64,000 bases of DNA from Microbacterium sp. LWS13-1.2 (lineage in GTDB: Bacteria; Actinomycetota; Actinomycetes; Actinomycetales; Microbacteriaceae), in contig NZ_CP151632.1 in NCBI RefSeq assembly GCF_040144835.1, positions 496,001-560,000 on the forward strand, written 5' to 3'. Position numbers and translations under genes: made by a program. Positions within the stretch are counted from its first letter, which is position 1, and every line of letters starts with the position of its first letter. Shown piece after piece: positions 23,463-28,392 of the stretch. The notes beneath the pieces are model-generated. The model was not told where the DNA came from. It made no database searches and saw nothing but the letters and a program-made list of their open reading frames with translations.

Positions 23463-24809
23463 GTGACTCCAGGCACGAACACCAAGGCTCGCTCGGCCGC
23501 GAAGGACACCGAGACGGACCAGGCGACGACTCCCGCCGCGAAGAAGGCTCCCGCAGCGAAGGGCGCCGCCAAGTCCAAGGCGGCACCGAAGACCGCGTCC
23601 AAGCGCGCGAAGAAGTCGGACGACGACTTCGAGGACGACGTCGAGGAGCTCGACGACGACGTCGAGATCGAGGCCGACGACATCGAAACGGATGCCGCGG
23701 ACGACACCGCGGAGGCGGCCCCGGCCGCCAAGGACGCGAAGGCCTCCACCGACGACGCCGCCGCGTCCGACGACGACGAGGAGGACGAGGAGAGCACGAA
23801 GCCCGTGTTCACCGAGCCTCTGCCCACGGGTGCGATCGTCATCTCGTCGAGCGACGAGGACGACGTCCCCGTGTACTCGACGCAGATCACCGGCGCCACG
23901 GCCGACCCCGTCAAGGACTACCTGAAGCAGATCGGCAAGGTGCCGCTGCTGAACGCGGCCGAAGAGGTCGAGCTCGCGATGCGCATCGAGGCGGGACTGT
24001 TCGCCGAAGAGAAGCTGTCGCACATGTCGGCCGCTGAGAAGAGCTCGCAACTCGGACTCGACCTGCAGTGGGTCGCCCGCGACGGCCAGCGCGCGAAGAG
24101 CCACCTTCTGGGCGCCAACCTGCGTCTCGTGGTGTCGCTCGCGAAGCGCTACACGGGTCGTGGCATGCAGTTCCTGGACCTCATCCAGGAGGGCAACCTC
24201 GGCCTCATCCGCGCGGTCGAGAAGTTCGACTACACCAAGGGCTTCAAGTTCTCGACGTACGCGACCTGGTGGATCCGTCAGGCCATCACGCGCGCCATGG
24301 CCGACCAGGCGCGCACCATCCGCATCCCGGTGCACATGGTCGAGGTCATCAACAAGCTCGCGCGCGTCCAGCGTCAGATGCTGCAGGACCTCGGTCGCGA
24401 ACCCACGCCCGAGGAGCTCAGCCGCGAGCTCGACATGACCCCCGAGAAGGTCATCGAGGTGCAGAAGTACGGCCGTGAGCCGATCTCGCTGCACACTCCT
24501 CTCGGCGAGGACGGCGACAGCGAGTTCGGTGACCTCATCGAGGACACCGAGGCCGTGGTTCCCGCCGACGCGGTGGGCTTCACGATGCTGCAGCGTCAGC
24601 TCGAGTCGCTCCTCGATTCGCTCTCGGAGCGCGAGGCCGGCGTGATCCGCATGCGGTTCGGCCTCGGCGACGGCCAGCCCAAGACGCTCGACCAGATCGG
24701 CGACACGTTCGGGGTCACCCGCGAGCGCATCCGCCAGATCGAGTCGAAGACCATGGCGAAGCTGCGGCATCCGTCCCGCTCCCAGTCCCTGCGGGACTAC
24801 CTCGAGTGA
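23463..24809 (+). CDS. sigA: Principal RNA polymerase sigma factor
   Basis: Directs RNA polymerase to housekeeping promoters. I use GTG 23463 ([15 protein letters not shown]), which has AAAGGCG upstream, giving 448 residues. The first about 140 residues are alternately Lys/Ala-rich and strongly acidic, typical of actinobacterial SigA/HrdB. Region 1.2 begins at [18 protein letters not shown], region 2 shows [19 protein letters not shown] style sequence with [10 protein letters not shown], and region 4 ends in [20 protein letters not shown]. The 247-bp gap upstream should hold its promoter. The stop overlaps the next gene. Confidence 0.97.
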
Positions 24810-25501
24810 GCGAGGCGAACGCCGGCAAGGCGCTCACCGTCCAGGTCGAAGGCTCGTCGTTCGCGCGCATCCCGATCCGCACGCGGGTCGTGATGCCGGG
24901 CGACGACCTCGACGAGTTCATCCGCGAGTACGCGGCGGACGTCGTGCGCGAGGGCGACCTGCTGTTCGTGACGGAGAAGATCGTCGCGATCACGCAGGGC
25001 CGCTCGTACCTCGTCGAGGACATCAAGCCCCGCCGGCTCGCGTTCTTCCTCTCGAAGTACGTCACGCGCACCCCGTACGGCATCGGTCTCGGCATGCCCG
25101 AGACCATGGAGATGGCGCTGCGCGAGTGCGGTCCGATCCGCATCCTGTTCGCGGCAGCGGTGTCTGCCGTAACGAAGCTGTTCGGGCGCAAGGGCGACTT
25201 CTACCGCATCGCCGGCGACAAGGCCCGGGCGATCGACGGTCCCACGTCAGGCACGATCCCGCCGTACAACAAGGCGGTCGTGCTGGGCCCCGCGCATCCG
25301 CGCGAGGTCGCCCAGCAGGTCAAGGCTCTGCTCGGCGGTGCGCCCGAGGTGGCCGTGGTCGACATCAACGACCTCGGCGGCAACATCCTCGGCTCGACCC
25401 TCGACAAGGCGGGGGAGAAGCGCCTCGTCGCGATCCTCAAGGACAACCCGCTCGGTCAGGGGCACCAGTCCACACCGCTCGGCATCGTCCGCGCGGTCTG
25501 A
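24806..25501 (+). CDS. CofE-like (F420:gamma-glutamyl ligase family) protein
   Basis: The 231-residue protein starts at GTG 24806, overlapping the sigA stop by 4 bp. It has the F420 gamma-glutamyl ligase fold: [37 protein letters not shown] with the metal-binding region, [18 protein letters not shown] and [14 protein letters not shown]. The stand-alone subfamily after sigA is known in actinobacteria but its substrate is not; no other F420 gene lies in this window. A terminator hairpin follows. Confidence 0.8.
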
Positions 25502-25564: not shown

Positions 25565-26587
25565 TCAGAAACCGATGGCCTCGCGGTAGCGCGGCTTGTG
25601 CCCCGTGCGGATGCCGGTGACGCTGGGCTTGTTCTCGTAGACGCCGGCGCCCCAGTTGCCCTCGACGAGCACCGGGCCTTCGGGGGTGACCACGATGTCC
25701 CAGCCGACGTACTGGATCTGCGGGACGACGCGCGCGATCCGGTCGACGAACTCCTTGACCTGGTCGATCATCGGCAGCTGGAAGTCGGCGATCGTGAAGC
25801 CGCTGTCGGGGTGCGTGACATGAACATGCCCGTGCGAGTCGTACCCGGGGCCGACCGCATGGCCGTTCTGGTCGAGCATCGTGTAGAAGCCGCCGAATGT
25901 CATCTGGTCGCTCACCGCGCCGCGGCCGAACTTCTGCGCCATGGCCAGGATGTGCGTGGTCTCCCCGTCGAAGAAGGCCGTGACGCGGGTGGTGTTGACC
26001 GTGCCGGGGCAGACCGCGGCAAGGTCCGCGTGCTGGCGGATGACCTCCTCGATCAGCAGCTCGCCACGCGAGAGCAGGCCGCGGTGGAACTCGTGCCAGT
26101 CGGTGATGTCGGCGGCGTGGTAGCGGTGCACGCCGGTCCCGGCCTGGCCGACGGGCTCCTTGGTGACGATCGTGCCCTGCTTCTCGGCGAAGGCGCGCAC
26201 GGCGTCGGCGTTGCCCTCCTCGACGACCATCCAGTCGCGACGGAGGAAGTCGCTGAACGTGCGGTCGAACTCGACCTTGTCCTGGAACAGACCGCGGTAA
26301 TCGGGATGGTCGTACTTCTGAGACAGCTCGTTCGACACCGGGTGCGTCATGTAGGTCGCCCGCTCGGCGCGGTTCAGGATCGCGAAGTCGTAGTCGACGT
26401 AGTCCTGAAAGCCGACTTGCCTGAAACCGGCCGACCACAGCATGTCGACCATCACGGCCGGGGTCCATCTGCCGTGCGCATGGGCGGTCTCCCTCGCCCG
26501 CTCGACCACGGATCCGACATCAATGCGACGGACACGCCAGGCGAGATATCGAAGGCGGTTCGAGAGGGCGAGGCCCTGAGAAGGCAT
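25565..26587 (-). CDS. ATP-grasp protein (sugar-transfer associated type)
   Basis: The 340-residue protein starts at ATG 26587. Its order of motifs is that of ATP-grasp enzymes: KQGTIVTKEPVGQAGTGVHRY (lysines and glycine-rich loop, near 138), ELLIEEVIRQH (adenine-binding, near 176), PGTVNTTRVTAFF, then QYVGWDIVVTPEGPVLVEGN with the metal-binding Glu and Asn near 305-320. It matches the family named sugar-transfer associated ATP-grasp, often found in cell-surface loci. It probably activates a carboxylate with ATP; substrate unknown. It is divergent, by 45 bp, from the racemase pair, so a joint role in the cell wall is possible. Confidence 0.8.
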   Translation of the reverse strand: MPSQGLALSNRLRYLAWRVRRIDVGSVVERARETAHAHGRWTPAVMVDMLWSAGFRQVGFQDYVDYDFAILNRAERATYMTHPVSNELSQKYDHPDYRGLFQDKVEFDRTFSDFLRRDWMVVEEGNADAVRAFAEKQGTIVTKEPVGQAGTGVHRYHAADITDWHEFHRGLLSRGELLIEEVIRQHADLAAVCPGTVNTTRVTAFFDGETTHILAMAQKFGRGAVSDQMTFGGFYTMLDQNGHAVGPGYDSHGHVHVTHPDSGFTIADFQLPMIDQVKEFVDRIARVVPQIQYVGWDIVVTPEGPVLVEGNWGAGVYENKPSVTGIRTGHKPRYREAIGF

Positions 26588-26632: not shown

Positions 26633-27352
26633 GTGAGTTCCTCGATCCCTGGGCGCGGCGTGCCCGTGCCGGGATCGGCTCCCCGCAGCAGCCCGGTCGC
26701 CCGGATCTCACGGGGCGCGCTCACCGCGAACGCCCGTGCTGCGTGTGAGCGCGGCATCCGCTCGTTCGATCCGTCGGTCCTCGATGCGGATGCCTGGGGC
26801 CACGGCCGTTCACTCGTGCACGAGGTTCTCGAGGCTCAGGGGCTCGTCGCGGCGGAAGCGCCCGTCTTCACGGCCGACGGATCGGCCATCGCGCGACCTT
26901 CGACCACGCTCATGCCGTCGACGCTGTTCGGACTCCCGGGCGCCGGCCCGTCCACGACAGCTGTGCTGCGCCTCACCGGCACCGTGCTGTCGGTCAAGGA
27001 CCTCCGCACGGGCGAGGGCGTGTCGTACGGGTACGCCTACCGAGCAGCCGCCGACACCCGCATCTCCCTCGTGACGGGCGGCTACGCGCAGGGCATCGTC
27101 CGCGCGCTGGGCGGCGCCGTCGACGTCGCCATCGCCGGCCGTCGCCACCCCATCGTCGGGCGCGTCGCGATGGACGTCTGCGTCGTGGAGATCTCGGATG
27201 CCGCCGTGCGGCGCGGCGACGAGGTGCTGTTCCTCGGCGACCCCTCGCTGGGCGAGCCGTCGCTCTCGAGCTGGGTTCAGGCGACCGGCCTCAGCGAGGG
27301 GGAGCTCATCACGACGGTGGGGCTTCGCGCCATCCGCGAGGAGGCTCCGTGA
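26633..27352 (+). CDS. Alanine-racemase homologue lacking the barrel core, catalytic Tyr kept
   Basis: The 239-residue protein is mainly an alanine-racemase C-terminal domain. ARISRGALTANARAA (about 23-37) resembles the start of Alr, and VLDADAWGHG (49-58) aligns with VVKADAYGHG but has Asp51 where the PLP lysine should be. The rest of the TIM barrel is missing. The C-domain is intact: GEGVSYGYAYRA (128-138), GGYAQG (149-154) with Tyr151 at the catalytic-tyrosine position, and VGRVAMDVCVVEIS (175-188). The next gene overlaps by 4 bp and has the opposite loss, so I infer a heterodimer. It is unlikely to racemise anything alone. Confidence 0.8.
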   Translation: MSSSIPGRGVPVPGSAPRSSPVARISRGALTANARAACERGIRSFDPSVLDADAWGHGRSLVHEVLEAQGLVAAEAPVFTADGSAIARPSTTLMPSTLFGLPGAGPSTTAVLRLTGTVLSVKDLRTGEGVSYGYAYRAAADTRISLVTGGYAQGIVRALGGAVDVAIAGRRHPIVGRVAMDVCVVEISDAAVRRGDEVLFLGDPSLGEPSLSSWVQATGLSEGELITTVGLRAIREEAP

Positions 27353-28392
27353 CGGCGCGACTGCACGTCGATCTGTCGGCGCTCACGGCCAACATCGCGC
27401 GGGTGCGCGAGACCGTCGCGCCCGCCGAGCTCATGCTCGTCGTCAAGGACGACGCGTACGGCCACGGTCTGGAAGCCGTCGTGCAGACGGCCACGACCGC
27501 CGGCGTCACGTGGTTCGGCGCATTCGACGTGCGGACCGGAACCGCCGTGCGCGCCGCTGCCGGCGACGCGGCCCGCATCTTCACCTGGATCGCCGCGTCG
27601 CGCGACGATCTGCGCACCGCCATCGCAGCGCACCTGGACCTCGGGATCGGCGACGCCGAGCTCCTGGAGGAGCTCGCGGATGCCGCATCCGACGCCGCCG
27701 GCGCGCCGCGGGTGCATCTCAAGATCGACACCGGGCTGCACCGCAACGGCGTCCGCCCGGAGGAGTGGAGCACGTTCGTCGCGCGGGCCGCTGCGCTGCA
27801 GGCCGCGGGGCGGATCGACGTCGTCGGTGTCTGGAGCCACATCGCCGAGGCCTCGGATGCCGAGGACGACGACGCGCGCGCCGTGTTCGAGCGGGCGCTG
27901 CACGAGGCAGAGGCCGTCGGCATCCGCCCTCACGTCCGGCATCTGGCTGCCAGCGCCGCGTCGTTCGCGCGCCCTGAGTTCCGCTACGACATGGTGCGGG
28001 TGGGGGCGTTCTGCTACGGCATCCGATCTGCGGGCGGACCGTCGGCCGACACACTCGGACTGCGCACGATCGCCCGGCTCGAGGCCGAGGTGGTCGCCGT
28101 GCACGAGGAGACCGTGCGGATCGACATCGGTGCAGCCGACGGGCTGCCGTCCTCGCTGCGTGGTCGCGCCATGGTCGGCACACCGGCTGGTGCGCGCAGG
28201 CTCGGCCCGGTGGGCGGTGCGCAGTCCCTCGTCGACGCATGGACCGGTGCCGCGGTCGGAGACGTCGTGACGATCTACGGCCCGGGCGGATCCGGCGAGG
28301 GGACGGCGACCGACCTCGCCGAGGTCATCGGCACGATCGGCGAAGAGATCGCGGTGAGGGTCTCGCCGCTGATCGCGCGCGTCTATACGTGA
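27349..28392 (+). CDS. Alanine-racemase homologue with PLP lysine but no catalytic Tyr
   Basis: The 347-residue protein spans a whole fold-type III racemase. VVKDDAYGHG (31-40) has the PLP lysine Lys33; VHLKIDTGLHRNGV (122-135) and YDMVRVGAFCYGI (213-225), with the pyridine-contacting Arg, are normal. In the C-domain, RIDIGAADGLPSSL (257-270) has Ala262 where the catalytic tyrosine of GYADG should be. Start GTG overlaps the upstream stop (GTGA), so the two are made together. Length is slightly short of canonical Alr. It most likely pairs with the upstream protein; substrate may be Ala or another amino acid. A terminator hairpin follows. Confidence 0.82.
   Translation: MTARLHVDLSALTANIARVRETVAPAELMLVVKDDAYGHGLEAVVQTATTAGVTWFGAFDVRTGTAVRAAAGDAARIFTWIAASRDDLRTAIAAHLDLGIGDAELLEELADAASDAAGAPRVHLKIDTGLHRNGVRPEEWSTFVARAAALQAAGRIDVVGVWSHIAEASDAEDDDARAVFERALHEAEAVGIRPHVRHLAASAASFARPEFRYDMVRVGAFCYGIRSAGGPSADTLGLRTIARLEAEVVAVHEETVRIDIGAADGLPSSLRGRAMVGTPAGARRLGPVGGAQSLVDAWTGAAVGDVVTIYGPGGSGEGTATDLAEVIGTIGEEIAVRVSPLIARVYT

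Follow-up and report, generated by a model that had tools for sequence, protein, structure and literature searches.

Within the window analyzed here, a stretch of 64,000 nucleotides from the genome of Microbacterium sp. LWS13-1.2 (4.33 Mb, single contig), two consecutive genes, here called A and B, encode proteins of the alanine racemase (Alr) family, and for both proteins the closest named relatives come from Microbacterium. The pair is located between two genes that we take to be sigA and the topoisomerase B gene parE (Table 1). The overlap between the two reading frames had already been pointed out in the initial annotation and is borne out by their coordinates; on the basis of automatic start calls, the same -4 arrangement is found in 14 of 20 relatives. 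A Pfam search of protein A returned Ala_racemase_C alone (102.9 bits, residues 111 to 234), while protein B matched Ala_racemase_N (179.5 bits) and, weakly, Ala_racemase_C (32.2 bits), the latter over profile positions 34 to 127, so that roughly the first quarter of that domain is absent. Single-chain structure models were confident for B (pLDDT of 93.6) and fair for A (pLDDT of 80.5), and each model matched alanine racemases across almost its full length. A third, complete alanine racemase is encoded elsewhere in the same genome (G000:C1:3625720). As an aside, the public labels of two B homologues, a Coraliomargarita plasmid protein (P0209) and an Acidobacteria protein (P0241), look wrong.

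Table 1. Positions of the split racemase genes, of relevant codons and neighboring genes, and of related features in other loci (homologue counts refer to the 120 homologues listed for A and the 120 listed for B)
Feature	Position	Strand	Remark
F420 ligase-like protein, directly after sigA	24806..25501	+	PF01996, 39.9 bits
ATP-grasp protein, often beside the F420 ligase-like gene	25565..26587	-	PF14397, 106.3 bits
Gene A, putative racemase subunit (intact C-terminal domain and barrel stub)	26633..27352	+	GTG start, 239 aa
A Asp51 codon, at the place of the PLP lysine	26783..26785	+	Lys in 0/120 listed homologues
A Ser131-Tyr132-Gly133, SYG loop	27023..27031	+	120/120 listed homologues
A Tyr151 codon, catalytic tyrosine	27083..27085	+	120/120 listed homologues
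A Met180-Asp181, corresponding to Met312-Asp313 of alanine racemase	27170..27175	+	120/120 listed homologues
Overlap GTGA, 4 bases (stop of A, start of B)	27349..27352	+	
Gene B, putative racemase subunit (complete PLP barrel and worn C-terminal domain)	27349..28392	+	GTG start, 347 aa
B Lys33 codon, PLP lysine	27445..27447	+	118/118 readable listed homologues
B Ala262 codon, at the place of the catalytic tyrosine	28132..28134	+	Tyr in 0/120 listed homologues
B Glu332 codon, at the place of inner-gate Tyr354	28342..28344	+	Glu in 120/120 listed homologues
murT and Cys-less gatD beside the pair	L034 1631-3699; L043 5717-7737; L037 4819-6842; 26 other loci		
Putative divided housekeeping alanine racemase, genus g78	L089 3349-5474; L273 3992-5940		

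In alanine racemase, the PLP lysine, the barrel, and the inner-gate residue of an active site are supplied by one chain, and the tyrosine and Met312 are supplied by the other. HMMER alignments to chain 1vfh, an alanine racemase of Streptomyces lavendulae, distributed these elements over the two proteins: Lys33 of B aligned with the PLP lysine and Ala262 of B with the tyrosine of GYADG, while Tyr151 of A aligned with that same tyrosine and Asp51 of A with the PLP lysine, the last of these in a weak segment (6 to 12 bits). The initial annotation had stated that A lacks the PLP lysine and most of the barrel and retains the catalytic tyrosine, and that B retains the lysine and carries alanine in place of the tyrosine; all of this is upheld by the alignments, the Pfam matches, and the close homologues (Table 1). 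At position 51 of A, these homologues have E (50), D (22), R (21), A (12), Q (7), another residue (5), or a gap (3), and the two B homologues in which Lys33 could not be read have a gap there. The barrel catalytic residues K33, Y37, K125, R132, H164, and R217 are all present in B, and this set is absent from A; at the positions of Tyr265, Met312, and Asp313, the window B protein has Ala, Gly, and Ala, respectively. The two catalytic sets are not united in one polypeptide but split over A and B. A remnant of the PLP loop in A (residues 49 to 58; loci L034 to L053), which reads DAWGHG or DAYGHG, is itself conserved, with Asp53 in 115 of 116 readable homologues, and this conservation suggests a structural role.

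The partition was followed further in an alignment of 21 A and 21 B proteins (from the window and 20 loci picked from short-frame matches to A) with 26 canonical racemases of the same family, 1 of 27 canonical loci (L015) having been left out for its length. The positions of Lys39, Tyr43, Arg136, His166, and Arg219 are canonical in all 21 B proteins, and none of the 21 A proteins has lysine at the position of Lys39 (20 have other residues and one has a gap). The SYG loop is present in every A protein and in no B protein (the column is gapped in 20 and occupied by Phe in one), Met312 is found in 21 A and 0 B proteins, and Arg309 is found in 20 A proteins and a single B protein. At Tyr265, the A proteins have Tyr (18) or Phe (3), and 4 of the B proteins have Tyr. 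When all readable family members were considered, the 44 A proteins had Tyr (37) or Phe (7) at Tyr265 and in no case Lys at Lys39, and among 43 B proteins, Met312 was lost in 42 and the SYG loop in 43, with Tyr265 kept in 13. The complementary loss that had been proposed for the window thus extends, as a division of labor, far beyond it, except that loss of the tyrosine from B, given these 13 proteins, had to be rejected as a universal mark. Asp313 was likewise rejected as a mark of the partition, being found in 18 of 21 A proteins and 18 of 21 B proteins alike. The partition is more clear-cut still among the 120 homologues listed for each window protein. Judging from the conservation among homologues, a chance origin of the residue partition can be excluded. 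In four of the seven pairs with Phe in A, B does not have Tyr either (F/F in L042, L043, and L044 and F/W in L074), and it is these pairs, with the tyrosine missing from both chains, that pose the greatest difficulty for a heterodimer with one site.

Next, 150 genomes of the Microbacteriaceae, representing 85 genera, were surveyed for Alr-type matches at an E value of 1e-40: 71 genomes had at least two, 78 had one, and 1 had none. The acidic or paired locus was read first in 58 of the 71 multimatch genomes and later in the remaining 13, and one genome with a single match (G012) was added through its hit to A. The split pair was found in 45 of the 150 genomes (27 genera), and A adjoins B in all 45. 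The check named in the initial annotation, whether relatives always carry both genes together, came out in favor of the pair, in that neither gene occurred alone in the loci read, outside of which the single Alr match of the 78 one-match genomes mostly lies. The residue at position 354 (see below) could be read in 43 of the 45 split genomes, B being cut by a contig end in G112 and G012; in L054, it is A that is cut in this way. A further 16 genomes (9 genera) carry a full-length racemase with an acidic residue at position 354, directly downstream of another complete Alr, which itself has Tyr354 in 14 cases and Trp in 2. These 16 full-length acidic proteins retain K39, SYG, Y265, M312, and D313. 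None of the 150 genomes has both the split pair and the full-length acidic form, and an acidic racemase is found in 61 of them, two of which are unread at position 354. In six loci (L070, L071, L075, L078, L080, and L081), A has a longer, decayed barrel. Two tandem loci (L064, 4607-6127, and L065, 4623-6032) encode a Tyr354 racemase with Phe at the catalytic tyrosine, whose tandem acidic partner keeps Tyr; this state perhaps represents a first step of complementary loss. Separately, an Alr paralogue spanning several genera has Phe at Tyr43 and His at Tyr354 (L202, L203, L204, L205, L207, L208, L210, and L212) or, in L209, Phe at Tyr43 and Gln at Tyr354.

Among 80 named loci listed, position 354 is acidic in 5, unreadable in L141, and nonacidic in 74. 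The five comprise a full-length form in Curtobacterium pusillum (L094), in which the SYG column is a gap, and split forms in Microbacterium testaceum StLB037, two other Microbacterium strains, and a Micrococcales MAG; in Microbacterium oxydans, the split pair is located elsewhere in the genome. Six named genomes from outside the family have one racemase match each, with Tyr354. Of 119 Microbacterium genomes, 99 have an A-type match among the matches listed (partial in G202, G204, G248, and G250), 16 have a single match, which is canonical-like, 3 have two matches, both weak, and 1 has no match; the minority without an A-type match would fit the minority of species with L-lysine.

Taken together, the residue partition and the pairing, both of which are observed directly, lend support to the heterodimer with one live active site that had been suggested for the window, and we infer its assembly and activity from them with considerable, though not complete, confidence. 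According to this proposal, A and B would be two subunits of one racemase, to which B would contribute the PLP lysine, the barrel, and the gate residue and A would contribute the tyrosine and Met312. The single complete site would be formed by the B barrel under the C-terminal domain of A, and no second site would exist.

In a tree of the barrels, in which 42 split B proteins and 16 full-length acidic proteins (15 survey proteins and that of Curtobacterium) were set against 51 others, the acidic barrels fall on one side of a branch with a support of 98.7. Split and full-length forms are intermixed in two subclades, and no simple history leading from full-length to split forms emerges from the trees. 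A tree of the C-terminal domain, which has few columns, places all A proteins together with a support of 85 (not starred) and all B proteins together at 50. A second split case was found in genus g78, where, in both sampled genomes (G140 and G077), the sole other Alr match at an E value of 1e-40 is itself divided into two genes (L089 and L273). The barrel gene has kept Tyr354 and lost the SYG loop and Met312, and the downstream gene has no barrel, carries Thr at the PLP lysine, and has kept SYG, Tyr265, Met312, and Asp313; in the C-domain tree, the C-terminal domain of this pair is placed apart from the A group. If this pair were inactive, these bacteria would have no recognizable alanine racemase among their Alr matches at that threshold. 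The housekeeping alanine racemase of g78 may have become a two-gene, one-site enzyme independently, a proposal that, jointly with the wall-bridge pathway discussed below, we regard as evenly balanced between right and wrong.

Three features not mentioned in the initial annotation, namely, the acidic residue at position 354, the presence of a complete third alanine racemase, and a neighborhood of cell wall genes, favor a diamino acid over alanine as the substrate. Glu332 of B aligns (HMMER) with Tyr361 of the S. lavendulae Alr, which, as given in a passage of PMC3485190, is the inner-gate residue equivalent to Tyr354 in the Bacillus enzyme. Tyr was found at this position in all 26 canonical racemases of the alignment, and Asp (13) or Glu (8) was found in the 21 B proteins; in the sigA-parE region, every B protein that is readable at this position (43) has an acidic residue there, and among listed homologues, the Glu of the window B protein is as invariant as the Asp of the L050 set (120 of 120). 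The same source states, where it deals with the lysine racemase Lyr, that Thr391 of that enzyme takes the place of Tyr354 and contacts the side chain nitrogen of docked lysine (PMC3485190). Since the residue at this place in Lyr touches the side chain amino group of docked lysine, an acid at the gate would be expected to bind a diamino acid that is cationic, and its presence suggests a cationic substrate. The B gate acid (Glu332 here and Asp in other genera) would thus hold the cationic diamino acid, although it could also be a catalytic base rather than a substrate anchor. Alanine as the default substrate was downgraded, as the genome encodes a separate, complete alanine racemase and Tyr354 is replaced; in Microbacterium, the most likely substrate would be ornithine.

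Beside the pair, murT and gatD are present in 27 of the 45 split loci of the survey and in two named loci, in some cases as a single run, sigA-murT-gatD-A-B. MurT-GatD carries out the amidation of the α-carboxyl group of D-Glu in lipid II. The GatD protein of L043 matches Staphylococcus aureus GatD (5n9m) with an E value of 2e-31 and has Ala at Cys94, and the catalytic Cys is found in none of the 29 GatD copies of the pair clusters; this combination of murT with a Cys-less gatD appears to be a lipid II ligase put to a new use. Of the 91 GatD matches outside these clusters, 60 were read: Cys is found in 0 of 16 copies from the genomes with the full-length acidic racemase, in 3 of 5 further copies from split genomes (each from a genome that also has a Cys-less copy in the cluster), and in 8 of 39 copies from genomes without an acidic racemase. 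With 31 of these 39 copies being Cys-less, loss of the Cys extends beyond the genomes with an acidic racemase, which is what one would expect of a mark of group-B walls in general.

No MurT was found by Pfam in the window genome, and the cell wall link therefore rests, in this genome, on a pattern of substitution: the place taken by murT-gatD in most relatives with the pair is occupied by a gene for an F420 ligase-like protein (Table 1). This protein has a strong match in 22 of the 150 genomes and a weak one in three more (G053, G123, and G147). GatD matches were found in 113 of the 150 genomes, including these three, and in none of the 22, a mutual exclusion with a hypergeometric probability of 7e-17 for the 22 when kinship is ignored. 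Since both states, differing by species, occur within seven genera (g1, g7, g9, g13, g58, g77, and g85), the switch between MurT-GatD and the F420 ligase-like protein must have been repeated, and this pattern, read from gene content, suggests that the two do the same job. In the fetched stretches, the ATP-grasp gene accompanies 12 of 15 F420 ligase-like loci with the pair and none of 29 gatD loci; next to the pair, L035 (1835-3983) and L084 (994-3181) each contain two back-to-back copies of an ATP-grasp gene of the type found in the window. A Cys-less GatD (45 genomes) or a strong F420 ligase-like protein (13 genomes) is encoded in 58 of the 61 genomes that carry an acidic racemase, and the other three have weak hits (G053), an unread GatD residue (G030), or a fragmentary sequence (G038).

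In group-B walls, the bridge is attached at the α-carboxyl group of D-Glu; the Curtobacterium wall contains D-ornithine, and Cryobacterium has a diaminobutyrate-type wall. We propose that the racemase would supply its D-product for the cross-bridge of group-B peptidoglycan, in which a D-diamino acid is found, and that a neighboring ligase would join this diamino acid to the α-carboxyl group of D-Glu. The candidates for this ligase are MurT paired with a glutaminase-dead GatD and the F420 ligase-like protein, the latter either by itself or together with the ATP-grasp protein. A diamino acid substrate and a cell wall role, taken together, we hold to be probable, and we infer substrate and pathway from the clade and the neighborhood, both of which were seen directly. 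Whether the sigA-parE region of many Microbacteriaceae represents the group-B cross-bridge pathway, in which the amino acid would be coupled by MurT with a glutaminase-less GatD or by its F420 ligase-like replacement, is a question on which we see the balance as even. Against a wall role, Cryobacterium sp. Y11 has no acidic racemase (two matches, both with Tyr354), acidic racemases occur in just 61 of the 150 family genomes, and Cys-less GatD is also common in genomes lacking them, as noted above. It is plausible, from spot checks in a few species, that presence of the racemase tracks D-diamino acid wall types. In the relevant section of PMC10757982, D-ornithine is given for the M. testaceum clade except Microbacterium enclense and also for the strains studied there and their close neighbors in the Microbacterium liquefaciens clade, M. 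oxydans being among the strains compared. The split pair is present in both M. testaceum and M. oxydans.

The acidic residue also allows for a different reading, in which the heterodimer is real but uses Glu or Asp at position 354 as an additional catalytic base and acts on alanine or on some other small amino acid. A passage in PMC3485190 describes position 354 as adjoining PLP and Tyr265', and such a base would accommodate the pairs without any tyrosine (L042 to L044 and L074). We nevertheless consider this unlikely: the acid is also found in full-length members retaining Tyr265, lipid II-modifying genes adjoin many of the pairs, and alanine is probably covered by a further Alr-type match present in the genomes that have an acidic racemase (with residues read in the window genome and the 16 tandem genomes, not in every split genome). 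Somewhat less likely still, B might act alone, as a homodimer or monomer with lyase, aldolase, or single-base activity, with A as a stabilizer or regulator. Alanine racemase without its tyrosine shows altered chemistry, the barrel of B is complete and its fold is confident, and 13 of the 43 B proteins do retain the tyrosine; however, A holds exactly the catalytic partner residues, in 120 of 120 homologues, which would be needless for a mere stabilizer, and B has lost Met312 and the SYG loop almost without exception. That A and B are decaying, functionless duplicates of alanine racemase, a thought raised by the parts missing from both and by the full alanine racemase elsewhere, is very improbable, and a pseudogene reading was rejected on the grounds of conservation, the frames being open, the catalytic residues invariant, and the adjacency fixed in 27 genera. 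The best explanation overall, and in our opinion probably the right one, is a one-site heterodimer racemizing ornithine or a similar diamino acid for group-B peptidoglycan.

Compared with known enzymes, the pair shares with Alr (fold type III; 1vfh, 5fac, and 1xfc) the fold, the barrel catalytic set (in B), and the C-terminal set (in A). Unlike Alr, which is a homodimer with two sites, A and B are products of two unlike genes with one predicted site, and the inner-gate Tyr354 is replaced by Glu or Asp in B. Replacement of Tyr354 within an Alr-type fold is also seen in Lyr and Bar (4dza and 4dyj), which racemize lysine and have Thr391 and Ala393, respectively, at this place, as described in part of PMC3485190. 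These are single-chain enzymes with a neutral residue at position 354, in contrast to the Glu or Asp of B, and the pair may still work in a Lyr/Bar-like manner. The full-length acidic paralogue (16 survey genomes and C. pusillum L094) belongs to the same barrel clade and has the acidic residue 354 but differs in having the catalytic residues in one chain and, in the stretches read, no sigA, parE, or murT beside it. Both parts of the MurT-GatD lipid II isoglutaminyl synthase (5n9m and 6gs2) have homologues among the neighboring genes in 27 of the 45 split loci, but the neighboring GatD lacks the nucleophile Cys94, and ammonia delivery from glutamine is therefore not expected.

A search of the open-access literature found nothing on a two-gene racemase or on the enzymes of the group-B D-diamino acid bridge, and among the matches listed, no title dealt with a heterodimeric alanine racemase. 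If the proposal is true, the pair would offer a clear example from nature of a shared-site homodimer whose parts were distributed over two genes until a single site remained, and both intermediates and a second occurrence (g78) would be available for studying how such a division happens. Additionally, the neighborhood of the pair provides concrete candidate enzymes for the D-diamino acid bridge of group-B walls.
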